Shown piece after piece: positions 3,458 through 9,457 of a stretch of DNA of 21,484 bases. Under the pieces are notes generated by a model, which did no database searches, was not told the DNA's origin, and saw nothing but the letters and a program-made list of their open reading frames with translations. Each line of letters starts with the position of its first letter. Within the stretch, counting starts at the first letter, position 1. Origin of the DNA: a virus; the IMG/VR virus record IMGVR_UViG_3300031857_001615, positions 1 through 21,484 of that record, one strand, 5' to 3'. The position numbers and the translations under genes were made by a program.

Positions 3458-4108
3458 ATGTCTAAATATGTAGCCTACTTCCGTGTATCAACAGATCGTC
3501 AGGGCGCATCAGGCCTTGGCTTAGAAGCCCAGCAAGCAGCCGTTATTCAGTACGCCGACGGCATCATCCACTCATTTACTGAGATCGAATCAGGCAAGCA
3601 CGATGACCGGCCACAGTTGGCCGCCGCCATCGCTATGTGCAAAGCCACAGGTGCAGCTCTTCTGATCGCCAAGATTGACCGCTTGTCACGCCAGGCTGCT
3701 TTCCTGCTGACACTGCGCGACTCTGGTGTTCAAATCGTTGCAGCTGACATGCCTCACGCCGGCACCCTTGAGTTCGGTATCCGTGCAGTAGTTGCACAGC
3801 ACGAGCGCGAAGAGATTAGCCGTCGCACCAAGGCAGCACTGCAGGCAGCTAAAGCTCGCGGCATAAAATTAGGCAGCCCAAACCCATCAGCAGGCTCTGC
3901 TGCCGGCATCGCCAGCATCCAGGCAAGTGCAGATCAGTTTGCACAGCGCGTCAAGCCCATCATCGACGACATCATTGCCAAGACTGGCTCAACCAGCCTG
4001 CGCTCAATCGCAGCTGCACTGACAGCTCGCGGTGTGCAGACATCACGCGGTGGCCGCACCTGGGGTGCCAGCCAAGTAGCTAACTTAATCTCAAGGAGTG
4101 CAGCATGA
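3458..4108 (+). CDS. Small serine recombinase (resolvase/invertase family)
   Basis: 216 residues. The catalytic domain starts with YVAYFRVSTDRQ, where Ser11 is the nucleophile and Arg9 an active-site arginine. AKIDRLSR (Arg75, Arg78) supplies the other conserved arginines. EREEISRRTKAALQAAKARG is the long dimer helix, followed by GIKLGSPNP, the usual hinge into the DNA-binding region. The C-terminal part, with SLRSIAAALTARGVQTSRGG, resembles the Hin/resolvase helix-turn-helix (recombinase) element. Its length matches resolvases and invertases, not the ~450-600-residue serine integrases. In this position it could resolve phage genome multimers, invert a segment, or act in plasmid-like maintenance. 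No flanking pair of crossover sites was identified. Confidence 0.9.
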   Translation: MSKYVAYFRVSTDRQGASGLGLEAQQAAVIQYADGIIHSFTEIESGKHDDRPQLAAAIAMCKATGAALLIAKIDRLSRQAAFLLTLRDSGVQIVAADMPHAGTLEFGIRAVVAQHEREEISRRTKAALQAAKARGIKLGSPNPSAGSAAGIASIQASADQFAQRVKPIIDDIIAKTGSTSLRSIAAALTARGVQTSRGGRTWGASQVANLISRSAA

Positions 4109-4469: not shown

Positions 4470-5426
4470 ATGTCAGGCAAAAAAACACCATCGACCATGA
4501 TGTCAGCCAGCCGACTGCCATCGCTGCTAGGCTTATCTAAGTACATGACACCCAATGACGAGCTGCATATGTCAATCTCTGCACTGAAGGGCGAGCTCAA
4601 TAACTTTGAGCAGAATGAAGCGATGGCTTGGGGTGATCGACTTGAAGAGATTATCTTGTTAGAAACCGGCAAGCGCCTGCAGCTGACGGAGCTACAAACT
4701 GAATTCAGCAGCGCCTTCTATCACGCCACATTACCACTGGCTTGCAGCCTGGATGGTTATGCTGATGGCCGCGGCCAAGTAATTAAAAATGATCATGATG
4801 CCGGCATTTTTGTCATTGGCGCAGATCAAATAGTGCTCGATGGTTTTGGAGTGCTCGAGGCAAAGCTAACATCTGTCCAGGCCGAGGAGATCCCAGCTCT
4901 GTACCGTGGGCCAGTTCAATTGCAAGCGCAAATGGACATCATGCAGGCTAAGTGGGGCGCAGTGTCTGTGCTTTATCGCGGCACTGAGCTGCGTATATTT
5001 TTGTTTGAGCCACACCAGCAAACCTTGGCCACAATTAAACAGGCAGTGCTTGATTTCCAAGACAAGCTGGAAAAGTACAAAGCCACCGGAGCTGTTGACT
5101 TCTACCCACCGGCAACCAGCGATGATGCAGACCGGATGTATCCAAGTGCAGCTGGTGAATCAATTGTCTTAGATGTTGAGGCTGAATTACTGGCAGATAA
5201 AATTGTTGATGCCAAAAGCAGGATTACTGCAGCTGAGAAAGACAGAGCCGATGCTGAAAAAGATCTTAAGACAATGTTAAAGACAGCGCCAAAGGGAATC
5301 GCAGGCAAGTACGAGATTAGCTGGCCAATGCGTAACTACGCAGCACAAGCACAGAAAATTGTAAAAGCCAAAGATGCCTACAGCATCAGACAATCAACCC
5401 TTGCAATAAAGGAGTTTAAAAAATGA
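4470..5426 (+). CDS. YqaJ-family phage exonuclease (lambda Exo-like)
   Basis: 318 residues. It shows the YqaJ/lambda Exo signature: a start segment SASRLPSLLGLSKYMTPND, then AWGDRLEEIILLETG (Trp54-Gly55, Glu59/Glu60), CSLDGYAD (Asp95), VLEAKLTS (Glu130-x-Lys132) and RGPVQLQAQMDIMQ with the conserved glutamines. These residues form the PDDEXK metal site that degrades one strand of duplex DNA 5'-3' to expose single strands. The C-terminal third (after ~235) is a charged coiled coil (KSRITAAEKDRADAEKDLK), common in this family. It works with the RecT protein two genes downstream for strand-annealing recombination and repair of phage DNA. Confidence 0.9.
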   Translation: MSGKKTPSTMMSASRLPSLLGLSKYMTPNDELHMSISALKGELNNFEQNEAMAWGDRLEEIILLETGKRLQLTELQTEFSSAFYHATLPLACSLDGYADGRGQVIKNDHDAGIFVIGADQIVLDGFGVLEAKLTSVQAEEIPALYRGPVQLQAQMDIMQAKWGAVSVLYRGTELRIFLFEPHQQTLATIKQAVLDFQDKLEKYKATGAVDFYPPATSDDADRMYPSAAGESIVLDVEAELLADKIVDAKSRITAAEKDRADAEKDLKTMLKTAPKGIAGKYEISWPMRNYAAQAQKIVKAKDAYSIRQSTLAIKEFKK

Positions 5427-5599
5427 TTGATTTAAACGAGCTTGAAACAGCGCACGATAGGGCAGTCAACAGTCTGCTAGGCAACGTGCCGAAGTTACAC
5501 AGAGAAGAGGCCTGCGAAATAGTTGAGTCCATTGTTACCTTGGTGCTCATAACAATTAAAGATGAACTGGAGAAAAACAATGCAGCTCACTACAACTAA
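5423..5599 (+). CDS. 58-residue helical protein between exonuclease and RecT
   Basis: The ATG at 5423 overlaps the exonuclease stop (ATGA) and the frame ends TAA at 5597-5599, overlapping the RecT start by 20 bases. The sequence (MIDLNELETAHDRAVNSLLG at the start, CEIVESIVTLVLITIKDELE near the end) reads as two amphipathic helices, acidic overall. Its coupling to both neighbours suggests an accessory protein of the recombination pair, but no family is recognised. The hydrophobic run VTLVLITI is too short for a confident membrane span. Confidence 0.6.
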   Translation: MIDLNELETAHDRAVNSLLGNVPKLHREEACEIVESIVTLVLITIKDELEKNNAAHYN

Positions 5600-6608
5600 A
5601 GGCTTTGCCCCAGCCACTATGGGTGAAGCAATTGAGTTTTCAAGAATGCTTTCCGAATCCAGCATGGTGCCAAAGGCTTACCAGGGCAAGCCACAAGACA
5701 TCATGGTATGTGTTCAATGGGGTTATGAGCTGGGTCTGGCACCTATGCAGGCACTGCAGAACATTGCTGTAATCAATGGCAAGCCTAGCGTCTACGGTGA
5801 TGCTATGGCTGCCCTGGTACAAGCTAGTCCAGTGTGCGAAGGGATCGAAGAGCGCATCGACAATGAAGGTACGGTCAACCCTGTTGCAGTTTGCATAGCA
5901 CACCGGAAAGGACGCAAGCCTGTCACTGCTACCTTTAGCGTTGAGGATGCAAAGCGAGCTGGGTTATGGGGCAAGCAAGGCCCTTGGCAGGCTTACCCTA
6001 AACGGATGTTGCAGATGCGTGCGCGTGGCTTTGCCTTGCGTGATGCTTTTCCTGATGTGCTGAAAGGCTTGATCAGCGCAGAAGAAGCCCAAGATTATCC
6101 AGAGGATACTGCACCACGGCCAATTAAAGATGTAACGCCGGTGCCTGCAAACCCATTGGATATGATTGCACCACCTGCAGCAACAACGCCACCACCAGCA
6201 CCAGAAGTTCCAGAGGATCTTGAACCCATCCTGGTAGATGAGTATGTACCTGACTTGGATGATGCGCCAGAAGAGCCACCAGAGCTGGCCACAGCGCCTG
6301 TCGACGGCATCCCATTGCTTACGCCTGGCAAGGATGATGAGCCGCCAAAAGTACACGCCACTCACCAAGACCTTAATGCATGGGCTGACCAGTTTATTGA
6401 GCTCATGGATAAGACAGCCAGAGCAGGTAAGGTACCACCACGCCAGCGCATGTCAGTGCTCAAAAAATTTAGAGATCTTAACGAATCAATTATCCAGAAG
6501 GTTGACCTGGGTAAGAAGTCTGAAATCGTTAGCATGTATGGCAGACGCATACGAGCTCTCGGAGCACAGCTAAAGGATGCTACTGACGCAGAGACTGGTA
6601 CTGAGTAA
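5580..6608 (+). CDS. recT: RecT-family single-strand annealing protein
   Basis: 342 residues from the ATG at 5580, which has GGAG seven bases upstream. An ATG at 5562 in the same frame lacks such a site. The RecT core is clear: MVCVQWGYELGLAPMQALQN, then INGKPSVYGDAMAALV, then GPWQAYPKRMLQMRARGFAL followed by RDAFPDVLKGLISAEEA. Residues ~185-260 are a Pro/Ala/Asp-rich linker. The remaining C-terminal ~80 residues form a charged helical tail. RecT proteins anneal complementary single strands made by the partner exonuclease. The gene is the last of its operon and its 3' end overlaps the opposite-strand Rz gene by 29 bases. Confidence 0.9.
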   Translation: MQLTTTKGFAPATMGEAIEFSRMLSESSMVPKAYQGKPQDIMVCVQWGYELGLAPMQALQNIAVINGKPSVYGDAMAALVQASPVCEGIEERIDNEGTVNPVAVCIAHRKGRKPVTATFSVEDAKRAGLWGKQGPWQAYPKRMLQMRARGFALRDAFPDVLKGLISAEEAQDYPEDTAPRPIKDVTPVPANPLDMIAPPAATTPPPAPEVPEDLEPILVDEYVPDLDDAPEEPPELATAPVDGIPLLTPGKDDEPPKVHATHQDLNAWADQFIELMDKTARAGKVPPRQRMSVLKKFRDLNESIIQKVDLGKKSEIVSMYGRRIRALGAQLKDATDAETGTE

Positions 6609-7047
6609 CACATTGATTCAATGCGATGCGGAGCTCTTCTGCCTGCTTACCTATGGCAATAAGAGCTTCTGCATCTTCTCTAGCAAGTTCTCTTGCAGTA
6701 CAGATGCAGGCGGGGCAGGCAGAGCCGGCGGCACCGGACACGGAACCTGCCTGGGTGGCGCGGTCGGGGCGCTTGCGCAAGCTGTCAGCAATACTGGCAA
6801 CACGAGCACCAAGCTCTTGATTCTTTGCATTGGCTTCCTCTCTTAATTGATCAGCATTAGATTGCAGCAGCTGTTCTTTCTCACGCGCAGCTGTGATTGC
6901 CTTGGCATGTTCTTCTGCCAGTTTGATTCTCTCTTTATCCCAGGCTGACTGCACTTCAGCGCGACCATGCGATGCGCCCTTAACATAGCCAGCACCACCA
7001 GCAATGGCCACAGCAAGCACAGCACCAACAATAAAGTAAGGATTCAT
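6580..7047 (-). CDS. Rz: Rz-like inner-membrane spanin (i-spanin)
   Basis: 155 residues. An N-terminal membrane anchor (YFIVGAVLAVAIAGGAGYV) is followed by a periplasmic coiled coil from ~30 to 90 (KLAEEHAKAITAAREKEQLL and onward). A Cys cluster follows, CPACICTARE, with C111, C114 and C116, then the Rz-type end helix DAEALIAIGKQAEELRIALN and C146 near the C-terminus. This matches Rz/LysB i-spanins, which join an outer-membrane lipoprotein to fuse the membranes in the last step of lysis. That partner is nested inside it in another frame at 6651-6830. It starts on an ATGA overlap with the small secreted-protein gene. Confidence 0.88.
   Translation of the reverse strand: MNPYFIVGAVLAVAIAGGAGYVKGASHGRAEVQSAWDKERIKLAEEHAKAITAAREKEQLLQSNADQLREEANAKNQELGARVASIADSLRKRPDRATQAGSVSGAAGSACPACICTARELAREDAEALIAIGKQAEELRIALNQCVTQYQSLRQ
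6651..6830 (-). CDS. Rz1: Rz1-like outer-membrane lipoprotein (o-spanin), nested inside Rz
   Basis: 59 residues read in a different frame wholly within Rz. The ATG at 6830 has AGAGGA five bases upstream. The peptide opens with a lipoprotein signal, MQRIKSLVLVLPVLLTAC, with lipobox L-T-A-C at 15-18. The mature part is proline-rich (ASAPTAPPRQVPCPVPPALP), then a short helix, LQENLLEKMQKLLLP. A small, Pro-rich lipoprotein embedded in Rz is the classic lambda-type o-spanin arrangement. Rz1 sequences vary greatly, so the lipobox, proline content, location and ribosome site are the proof, not similarity. With Rz it should span the periplasm and fuse the membranes. Confidence 0.88.
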   Translation of the reverse strand: MQRIKSLVLVLPVLLTACASAPTAPPRQVPCPVPPALPAPPASVLQENLLEKMQKLLLP

Positions 7048-7211
7048 TTTGGTGGTACTTTGGTGCTGCCCTCTAGCTTCTTATGCACCTTTACTGTTTT
7101 GCAAACCTGCTTGCCTTTCTCGTCATGGCAAACTTTTTTTAGTTCCCCACCTGCATAGCTATTGGCACTAAATGCAGCTAATAGTACAAGTATACTGGCA
7201 TTAAATCGCAT
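7044..7211 (-). CDS. Small secreted two-cysteine protein
   Basis: 55 residues from the ATG at 7211, with GGAG seven bases upstream. A 15-residue extension is possible but would overlap the holin-like gene. MRFNASILVLLAAFSANSYA is a signal peptide with a likely cut after SYA. The mature part, GGELKKVCHDEKGKQVCKTV then KVHKKLEG, is basic and has two cysteines (28 and 37) that may form a disulfide. I have seen similar short CHDEKGKQVCK proteins in phages or genomes of freshwater Betaproteobacteria but know of no function. Its place between holin-like and Rz genes suggests a periplasmic role in lysis or envelope protection. Confidence 0.7.
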   Translation of the reverse strand: MRFNASILVLLAAFSANSYAGGELKKVCHDEKGKQVCKTVKVHKKLEGSTKVPPK

Positions 7212-7212
7212 G

Positions 7213-7623
7213 TTAGATCTCCGGTTGTGCTGCTGGTGGTGGGGCAGGCTTACCATTAAAGCCTGTGATTATTGGTGCAGCTGTTGATACCGGCTCAAGC
7301 GTGGGCTCAGTGCGTTGAGCTGGTGCCTTGGGTGGTGGGTCAGTCCAGTCACTGGCTTTAGATACACCAGGTGGTGGGTCGATCAGCTTGGCCACACCAT
7401 CTTTGCCCTTGATGGCCAAGAGTGTAGCCAACGCACCCAAAATATATTTACTCATATCCGACAGCAGCATAAAGAACTGCTTGTCAGCTGGCGCAATGCC
7501 GGTCATCGGTTGCTGGACAAACACCACCGAATACATAGCCAGGCTGCTCATCATCAATAGCACCAAGCAAAATGTGGCTCCAATAATTAACTTGATGTAT
7601 GAGTCAATCAAATCTGAATTCAA
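7213..7623 (-). CDS. Holin-like membrane protein, probable TTG start
   Basis: 136 residues if started at the TTG at 7623, just after the stop of the lipoprotein gene. The frame is open to 7713 without a better start. Two membrane segments are seen: residues ~11-36 (KLIIGATFCLVLLMMSSLAM and on) and ~49-71 (FFMLLSDMSKYILGALATLL). The tail is Lys- and Pro-rich (LIDPPPGVSKASDW, TDPPPKAP and PAPPPAAQPEI), likely cytoplasmic. A two-span protein beside endolysin and spanins suggests a class II-like holin, but three other membrane proteins in the module are also candidates. The ribosome site (GAGGA) is about 12 bases from the TTG, so the start is uncertain. Confidence 0.6.
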   Translation of the reverse strand: MNSDLIDSYIKLIIGATFCLVLLMMSSLAMYSVVFVQQPMTGIAPADKQFFMLLSDMSKYILGALATLLAIKGKDGVAKLIDPPPGVSKASDWTDPPPKAPAQRTEPTLEPVSTAAPIITGFNGKPAPPPAAQPEI

Positions 7624-7625
7624 TT

Positions 7626-7820
7626 TTATTTTTGTTCCTCTGGCTTGAAGTCTGCAGCCGGCACCAATTGATCGGGGCAAGTACCAGTCACAGCGCAGGT
7701 TGGCCGCTGGCATTCAGGTTTGTTCCAGTTCTTATTGTCCTGGCATGGATACCTAAACGTATCTTCGCAGGATGCAATGGTCATAACCGCAATCGCTATA
7801 AAGAAAAATGATTTCATCAA
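7626..7820 (-). CDS. Small cysteine-rich lipoprotein of the lysis module
   Basis: 64 residues. MMKSFFFIAIAVMTIASC is a lipoprotein signal with lipobox I-A-S-C at 15-18. The mature part has four more cysteines (EDTFRYPCQDNKNWNKPECQ, then RPTCAVTGTCPD). Small lipoproteins with a YRYPCQDP.NW...C motif recur in short-tailed marine and freshwater phages, usually near the lysis genes. Because a clear Rz1 exists at 6651-6830, this is probably not the o-spanin. Superinfection exclusion or an accessory lysis role is possible. It begins on an ATGA overlap with the endolysin stop. Confidence 0.75.
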   Translation of the reverse strand: MMKSFFFIAIAVMTIASCEDTFRYPCQDNKNWNKPECQRPTCAVTGTCPDQLVPAADFKPEEQK

Positions 7821-8458
7821 TGCCCACCTTGCATCACAGCCAGCGCATGTTTGTAATGTTTGATGCGGTCGTTAAGCCCTATGGTTCCCCCATTTATTCG
7901 CTTCGTCATACCGAGGATGTCATCAATATCCGCGAATTTATTTAAGCCCCGACTCTCCCAGTACCAGCAAGCACTCTGAGTTGCCCCCTCGAATGTCTCC
8001 AGGTATTCTGGCACCTCATCAATCTTTAATGGCCGGCCATCAACTTCAATGCTGTCTGCAAATTCTTGATAGTTTGCACGACCAGTTAACTGGATAAGAC
8101 CTCGGCCAATCCAACGAGCAGCATCGCCACTAGCTTCATCACCATTACCCATACGACCACTATAAATACGATTTGCAATGGCAGCTTGTTTATTAGGCTT
8201 GGCACAATACGCTTGAGCAATTTCATCTGTTTCAAAATACTTAGCAAAAAGTTTTCTTAGGGTTGCTGGCTTGTAGTTTAGGTTTTCTTTTAATGTAGTG
8301 AAGTTGCCAGACTCATGCGCACACTGAGCAATGAATGATGCAATGCGCTTGTTGGTGTTGATCTCGTATTCAGGTAGCAGCTGCTCCAATGCATGGTGCC
8401 AATGCTCAACATACTTATTACCTGGCAGGAGCTGCTTCAGCTGGTTCAGTGTTAGCAT
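7817..8458 (-). CDS. Endolysin, glycoside hydrolase family 19 (chitinase-like)
   Basis: 213 residues, a single catalytic domain without a signal peptide or binding domain. Typical GH19 marks are RIASFIAQCAHESGNF, with Glu49 as probable acid catalyst, LKENLNY, with Glu58 as likely second acidic residue, the ANRIYSGRMGNGDEASGDA loop, and WIGRGLIQLTGRANY. GH19 endolysins of Gram-negative phages cleave the peptidoglycan glycan strand. Since no export signal is present, it needs a holin to reach the wall. The start overlaps the upstream membrane-protein gene by 41 bases. Confidence 0.92.
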   Translation of the reverse strand: MLTLNQLKQLLPGNKYVEHWHHALEQLLPEYEINTNKRIASFIAQCAHESGNFTTLKENLNYKPATLRKLFAKYFETDEIAQAYCAKPNKQAAIANRIYSGRMGNGDEASGDAARWIGRGLIQLTGRANYQEFADSIEVDGRPLKIDEVPEYLETFEGATQSACWYWESRGLNKFADIDDILGMTKRINGGTIGLNDRIKHYKHALAVMQGGH

Positions 8459-8708
8459 TTTTTTCCTCTAGTTCACGCATCATTAACTTGCGTATCCTAC
8501 GCATTCTATCTACCTCAACTATGGCTGCATTGGTTGCATTGTTTGCGTCCATGATTGCCAGCCCAACCAGCGGCAAGGCTATAGCAAGCGTTAAGACCAT
8601 TGCAAGTAAGCATATCAATAAAACCCAAGGGATGCTGTCTTGCTCGTCTTTATCAGGATCAGGACGCTGATTAGCCACAACGTCACGAACAGAACCGCGC
8701 CAAACCAT
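8418..8708 (-). CDS. Single-span membrane protein of the lysis module
   Basis: 96 residues with one long hydrophobic segment (~28-53, WVLLICLLAMVLTLAIALPL and on). A basic, charged helix follows (VDRMRRIRKLMMRELEEK), then an Ala/Glu tail. The ATG at 8708 has a weak GGGA nine bases upstream. A GTG at 8678 is an alternative that would remove the first 10 residues. The gene overlaps the upstream coding region by 94 bases and the endolysin by 41 bases, unusually long even here. The hydrophobic segment lies outside the first overlap. It may be a pinholin-like or antiholin-like protein; this is inference from location and topology. Confidence 0.6.
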   Translation of the reverse strand: MVWRGSVRDVVANQRPDPDKDEQDSIPWVLLICLLAMVLTLAIALPLVGLAIMDANNATNAAIVEVDRMRRIRKLMMRELEEKNANTEPAEAAPAR

Positions 8709-9298
8709 ATAACATTTTCCCGGAACCTTCTAATCATATGTCTACGTTTACGTGCTGCAATCTGTAGAAGTTTTAACTCTGTGATTCTTGCTGCTTCTTG
8801 CTGCTTGTTAATGCGCTCAACTGTCTTTTCATATTTACCCCAAAGCGATCCCAATTCTTGGGGTGCTCTATAAACCATCATCTCACGCAACTCTGCCATC
8901 ATTGAATCCAGCCTAGCCTCTATGATGATCTTGCGTAATGCTCTGCGACCTAATGACTCCTGACCTTTGTAGACAGTAGTGTTTGCTAGTTCCTCTGCCA
9001 GTAATGCTTTTGCCAACTGATCCTGTGCATCTAATAAAGCACCAAGCTGATTACCAATATCAGTGAACACATCATTAGGATCGGCCTTTGCAATCTCCTG
9101 AACCCTTGCTACTTCCTCGTTGTACTGAATCTTCTGTGCTGGAGTAGGATTCGGTATCTTATTGAACTGAACCTTTAAATCATCTAGCACTTCCTTTACA
9201 TCCCCAGCCGCATTCTTAATGTCTTTGTAAAGCTGACAGCCTTTCTTAACTGCAGCTACAGCAGCATTAGCTAACGCAAGTAAAGTGAGAGGATCAAT
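8615..9298 (-). CDS. Coiled-coil membrane-anchored phage protein, probable ATT start
   Basis: 227 residues if started at the ATT at 9298, otherwise 191 from a GTG at 9190. The extra 36 residues (read as MDPLTLLALANAAVAAVKKG then CQLYKDIKNAAGDVKEV) look genuine: similar phage proteins start MDP(I/L)..LALA..A..AVKK. AAGGGG lies six bases before the ATT, and an in-frame stop precedes it. The middle is helical and charged (LGRRALRKIIIEARLDSMMA, then LREMMVYRAP) and the C-terminus holds a membrane span (NVIWFGAVLFVTLWLISVLI). Homologue-like proteins occur in short-tailed marine and freshwater phages with unknown function. Confidence 0.75.
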   Translation of the reverse strand: MDPLTLLALANAAVAAVKKGCQLYKDIKNAAGDVKEVLDDLKVQFNKIPNPTPAQKIQYNEEVARVQEIAKADPNDVFTDIGNQLGALLDAQDQLAKALLAEELANTTVYKGQESLGRRALRKIIIEARLDSMMAELREMMVYRAPQELGSLWGKYEKTVERINKQQEAARITELKLLQIAARKRRHMIRRFRENVIWFGAVLFVTLWLISVLILIKTSKTASLGFY

Positions 9299-9301
9299 TT
9301 C

Positions 9302-9457
9302 TTACCCCTTCAATACAAGCGATAGAAGCAGCATAATGATTGCACCAGCACTACCGATAAGGATAGTCTCTATTTTTTTAAGACGCGCCCAGATACCGTT
9401 GTATCTTTCAGCGCATACTTCTTCGTGAGTATTCAATCTAGCTTCCAAATCGTCCAC
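9302..9457 (-). CDS. 51-residue membrane protein, XhlA/holin-like
   Basis: GTG start at 9457 preceded by GGGGATAGAG; TAA at 9304-9302. The protein is an amphipathic helix (DDLEARLNTHEEVCAERYNG then IWARLKKIE) followed by one membrane span (TILIGSAGAIIMLLLSLVL) and a Lys-Gly end. This order, a short coiled-coil helix and then a C-terminal span, is that of XhlA-type haemolysin/holin-associated proteins and similar small phage proteins with a C(A/E)ERY core. It lies directly upstream of the ATT-started gene in the lysis module. It could be the holin or a holin partner. Confidence 0.7.
   Translation of the reverse strand: MDDLEARLNTHEEVCAERYNGIWARLKKIETILIGSAGAIIMLLLSLVLKG
9305..9310 (-). promoter_or_regulatory. 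Ribosome binding site AAGGGG supporting an ATT start
   Basis: On the minus strand AAGGGG (9310-9305) is followed by TAAGAA and then ATT at 9298. Spacing of six bases is ideal. It also overlaps the last codons and stop of the 51-residue gene upstream (9302-9457), so translation is likely coupled. This site decides the choice of ATT over the GTG at 9190. Confidence 0.6.

Follow-up and report, generated by a model that had tools for sequence, protein, structure and literature searches.

Organization of the Rz/Rz1 locus

The window, i.e., the whole 21,484-nt stretch of DNA analyzed here, derives from a freshwater-type virus of bacteria and encodes on its minus strand a 155-aa i-spanin, Rz (6580..7047). 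Rz matches three PHROG families of Rz-like spanins (1327, 312, and 2466), with E-values of 2e-9 to 5e-9 (best 1.9e-9), and scores slightly under the cut-off against DUF2514. Hydropathy analysis finds a single hydrophobic segment, beginning at residue 4. An AlphaFold2 model, built with 12 sequences and of modest confidence (mean pLDDT 67), predicts an N-terminal TM helix (residues 3-19), a long helix (27-91), a low-confidence linker (92-117), and a further helix (118-154). At this level of model confidence, the two traits of an i-spanin, an N-terminal TM segment and a helical periplasmic domain, are present.

A second open reading frame lies entirely within Rz (7047-6580), in the +1 frame relative to it. 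This frame (6830-6651, minus strand) starts with ATG and encodes a 59-residue protein, Rz1, with the sequence MQRIKSLVLVLPVLLTACASAPTAPPRQVPCPVPPALPAPPASVLQENLLEKMQKLLLP; a sequence-only reading of the same DNA had proposed a 59-codon gene here, and the coordinates were recovered exactly. A Shine-Dalgarno sequence, AGAGGA (6841..6836), falls within Rz codons 69-71 and is spaced 5 nt from the Rz1 ATG, bearing out the ribosome site that had been proposed. The Rz1 N-terminus has a basic start, then a hydrophobic stretch, and then a lipobox, LTA|C, with the cysteine at residue 18 (signal peptide and lipobox, 6777..6830; Cys18 codon, 6779-6777). Judged by this pattern, Rz1 carries a lipoprotein signal; its signal peptide is the only segment that is hydrophobic by hydropathy analysis. 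The proline-rich region (residues 22-42; 6705..6767), with a VPCPVPP core that includes Cys31 (6738..6740), is encoded by Rz codons 94-115. The frame does lie within a coiled-coil gene, as first described, but its proline-rich part is opposite the predicted Rz linker rather than a coiled coil. The mature protein of 42 residues has 11 prolines, with 12 in the whole protein, fewer than the "about 13" of the initial count.

Rz1 matches one PHROG family of Rz-like spanins (3198; E-value 2.9e-4). Both proteins are thus related to known spanin families, with weak scores for Rz1 because the protein is short; curated Pfam and NCBIfam models gave Rz1 no match and no useful name. The Rz1 start lies at 0.46 of the length of Rz. 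About 70% of embedded o-spanins are reported to start at 0.4-0.5 of the i-spanin gene length (PMC6139136), so this position counts in favor of an embedded spanin. RNA folding around the Rz1 start is not unusual (z +1.56), and a search of the minus strand found no convincing promoter for Rz1.

Rz and Rz1 belong to a cassette with an upstream endolysin gene (GH19/chitinase-like; 7817..8458, minus strand; PHROG endolysin E-value 6e-71) that is syntenic in relatives. In most of the representative loci long enough to show it, the endolysin gene is followed by those for the second lipoprotein, a one-TM protein, a small secreted protein, and then Rz/Rz1. The second small lipoprotein (7626-7820, minus strand; lipobox IAS|C) is encoded between the endolysin and Rz, and has the pattern C(E/Q)DRFRYPCQDP.NW....C..P.C..TGTCP in 19 representative loci; it matched nothing in PHROG or Pfam. 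The small secreted cysteine protein (7044-7211, minus strand) is encoded directly before Rz in 20 representative loci, with the C-terminus GGE(M/L)KKVC...VCKT(I/V)KVHKKLEG(T)KVPPK. These two conserved members of the cassette may merit more attention; we think it unlikely that they are working parts of an envelope-breaking machine that, beyond Rz/Rz1, disrupts the outer membrane. Four small proteins encoded on the minus strand (9302-9457, 8418-8708, 8615-9190, and 7213-7626) each have a single strongly hydrophobic segment. The holin is probably among these four, although PHROG comparison and hydropathy analysis gave none of them a clear holin match.

On the other side of Rz, a RecT-like gene (5562-6608, plus strand) is convergent with Rz and overlaps it by 29 nt (6580-6608). 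A RecT-like gene is convergent downstream of Rz in some relatives too, with a 32-nt overlap in locus L011 and a 48-nt gap in L012. In the window, a gene resembling serine recombinases/DNA invertases (3458-4108, plus strand) adjoins RecE-like (4470-5426) and RecT-like genes.

Conservation of both reading frames

Scans with Rz and with Rz alignments yielded 81 distinct complete Rz genes, the window counted, all from IMG/VR contigs and falling into 25 clusters at <80% identity. Two observations had been named in advance as ones that would tell against the nested gene: stops in the frame in related phages, and loss of the lipobox cysteine. Neither was found. In all 81 genes, the nested frame is free of stops, the lipobox cysteine is present at the corresponding alignment position, and there is a second cysteine as well. 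Within the overlap, +1 stops occur in 0 of 4609 codon cells, as compared with 141 of 5344 upstream and 67 of 1858 downstream. Pairwise synonymous divergence of Rz is 0.284 in the overlap vs. 0.533 upstream and 0.415 downstream, and +1-frame identity is 0.486 vs. 0.332 and 0.379, respectively. These divergence, identity, and stop figures are descriptive, being taken over related sequences; the pattern is the same for 25 representatives with <80% identity.

From the lipobox cysteine through the PCPVPP core, conservation of the +1 frame exceeds that of Rz, and synonymous change in Rz is suppressed; +1-frame identity peaks in the proline-rich region. For Rz codons 101-110, synonymous divergence is 0.09 and +1 identity is 0.70, with Rz identity of only 0.48 (35 sequences). 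In L010, whose Rz is 94% identical to that of the window, Rz changes from SVSGAAGSACPAC to AMSGAAGAAGSSC with Rz1 unchanged across that stretch. The lipobox, the cysteines, the ribosome site, and the adjacency to the endolysin gene are all conserved. Both reading frames exist and show selection, with the alignments bearing the signature of dual coding.

Other properties of Rz1 are more variable. By position and codon, most relatives are assigned a GTG start at Rz nt 221 and a few an ATG elsewhere; the clade of the window has an ATG at Rz nt 218. An AGGA, GGAG, or GAGG core precedes the start in 79 of the 81. Rz1 length ranges from 55 to 82 aa among the relatives measured, and a C-terminal tail is missing in the clade of the window and in L038. 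The number of prolines in mature Rz1 ranges from 5 to 16 (35 sequences counted); a high proline content is thus dispensable in this family. Rz1 is otherwise embedded in the relatives, except that it runs 4 nt past the Rz stop codon in L018. In three loci cut by contig ends (L041-L043), the available part shows a lipobox and no interruption of the frame. A distant Rz-like gene, L044 (32% identity over 79 residues), was excluded from all counts as too distant; it has a lipobox-like stretch of the +1 frame only at its very end, and its o-spanin is possibly overlapped instead of embedded.

Relatives were found here only in uncultivated phages, on IMG/VR environmental contigs. A tblastn search of 50,697 phage records with the window Rz and the divergent L014 Rz gave no match, and a search of bacterial and archaeal genomes with the family alignment gave no confirmed relative.

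Alternative explanations for the nested frame

A long open frame opposite Rz could be a by-product of Rz codon composition. To gauge chance, shuffled versions of each Rz gene were made by permuting synonymous codons, with the Rz protein held constant. A +1 ORF of at least 59 aa was present in 78% of shuffles of the window Rz, and in 22-95% for relatives, meaning that ORF length alone is no evidence for a gene; in coiled-coil genes such as this, the openness of a frame is by itself poor evidence for a nested one. The picture differs for lipoprotein-like ORFs, defined by a start, a hydrophobic stretch without acidic residues, a lipobox cysteine at position 13-28, and at least 35 residues after it. 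Their frequency was 0.10% in shuffles of the window Rz and 0-0.12% across ten divergent relatives, two of which (L012 and L038) fail this strict filter themselves, though their lipobox is plainly visible. The initial claim that such a frame would hardly arise by chance therefore holds when applied to the lipoprotein signal; applied to the length, it does not. Moreover, a codon by-product is at odds with a +1 frame conserved above Rz and with a cysteine invariant in 81 of 81 genes; that pattern already refutes it, and we regard it as next to impossible. The decisive evidence for Rz1 is comparative, resting on the sequences of the 81 genes: the gene within Rz is real, and it was correctly read as Rz1.

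It is also conceivable that the second lipoprotein (7626-7820) is the true o-spanin, with Rz1 having another role or acting with it. This protein has a lipobox, lies in the same cassette, and is conserved in 19 representative loci. However, it has no spanin-like match, and what is conserved in it is a cysteine-rich motif, RFRYPCQDP.NW....C..P.C..TGTCP, whereas nested Rz1 shows the hallmarks of lambda Rz1 and is never lost among the relatives. We consider this alternative very improbable. Unimolecular spanins, of the T1 gp11 type, combine a lipobox and a C-terminal TM segment in one protein. This type was rejected: Rz1 is hydrophobic only in its signal peptide, and Rz has no lipobox.

Proposed function and comparison with known spanins

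Rz and Rz1 almost certainly form an embedded two-component spanin of the lambda kind. This agrees with the original proposal that one DNA stretch encodes both spanin partners; it has the support of the PHROG spanin matches, the conserved frame, and the conserved cysteine. By analogy with lambda, the N-terminal helix of Rz would anchor it in the inner membrane, with the two linker-joined helices extending into the periplasm. Translation of Rz1 would begin at its own start within the Rz message; after export and lipidation of Cys18, the protein would be anchored in the outer membrane. Both partners have a cysteine suited to homotypic disulfides, invariant in 81 of 81 genes: Rz Cys146 (6610..6612) and Rz1 Cys31 (+1 column 103). 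By position, these match lambda Rz C152 and Rz1 C29, of which lambda requires a disulfide at one or the other (PMC5295617); they are likely counterparts, and may link each protein into homodimers. The Rz and Rz1 homodimers would then pair across the periplasm and, with the peptidoglycan gone through the action of the endolysin, complete lysis by fusing the inner membrane with the outer. The understanding of lysis is unchanged.

The arrangement itself is long known from phage lambda. As in lambda, Rz1 lies wholly in the +1 frame of Rz, with its own ribosome site and a lipoprotein signal; mature Rz1 is proline-rich (10 of 40 residues in lambda, 11 of 42 in the window) and has a single cysteine; and Rz has a distal cysteine and two helical parts joined by a linker. 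In lambda, sensitive regions of one spanin protein are opposite silent regions of its partner (PMC5295617), and the position of the proline-rich part of Rz1 opposite the Rz linker agrees with this. Unlike lambda, Rz1 of the window has a PCPVPP core and no penta-proline run, and its frame ends at 0.85 of the length of Rz; many relatives use a GTG start and have a longer C-terminal tail. The family also differs in being absent, by sequence, from the isolate-phage collection searched.

"Embedded" is an architectural class of the spanin survey by Kongari et al. 2018, where it is described in detail (PMC6139136), and Rz/Rz1 of the window belong to the same class. That survey used phage genomes, whereas the present family comes from environmental contigs; it adds 81 distinct sequences from uncultivated phages to a class known chiefly from isolates, and is also a clean natural data set in which one DNA stretch encodes two proteins, with Rz1 conserved opposite a loose Rz linker.
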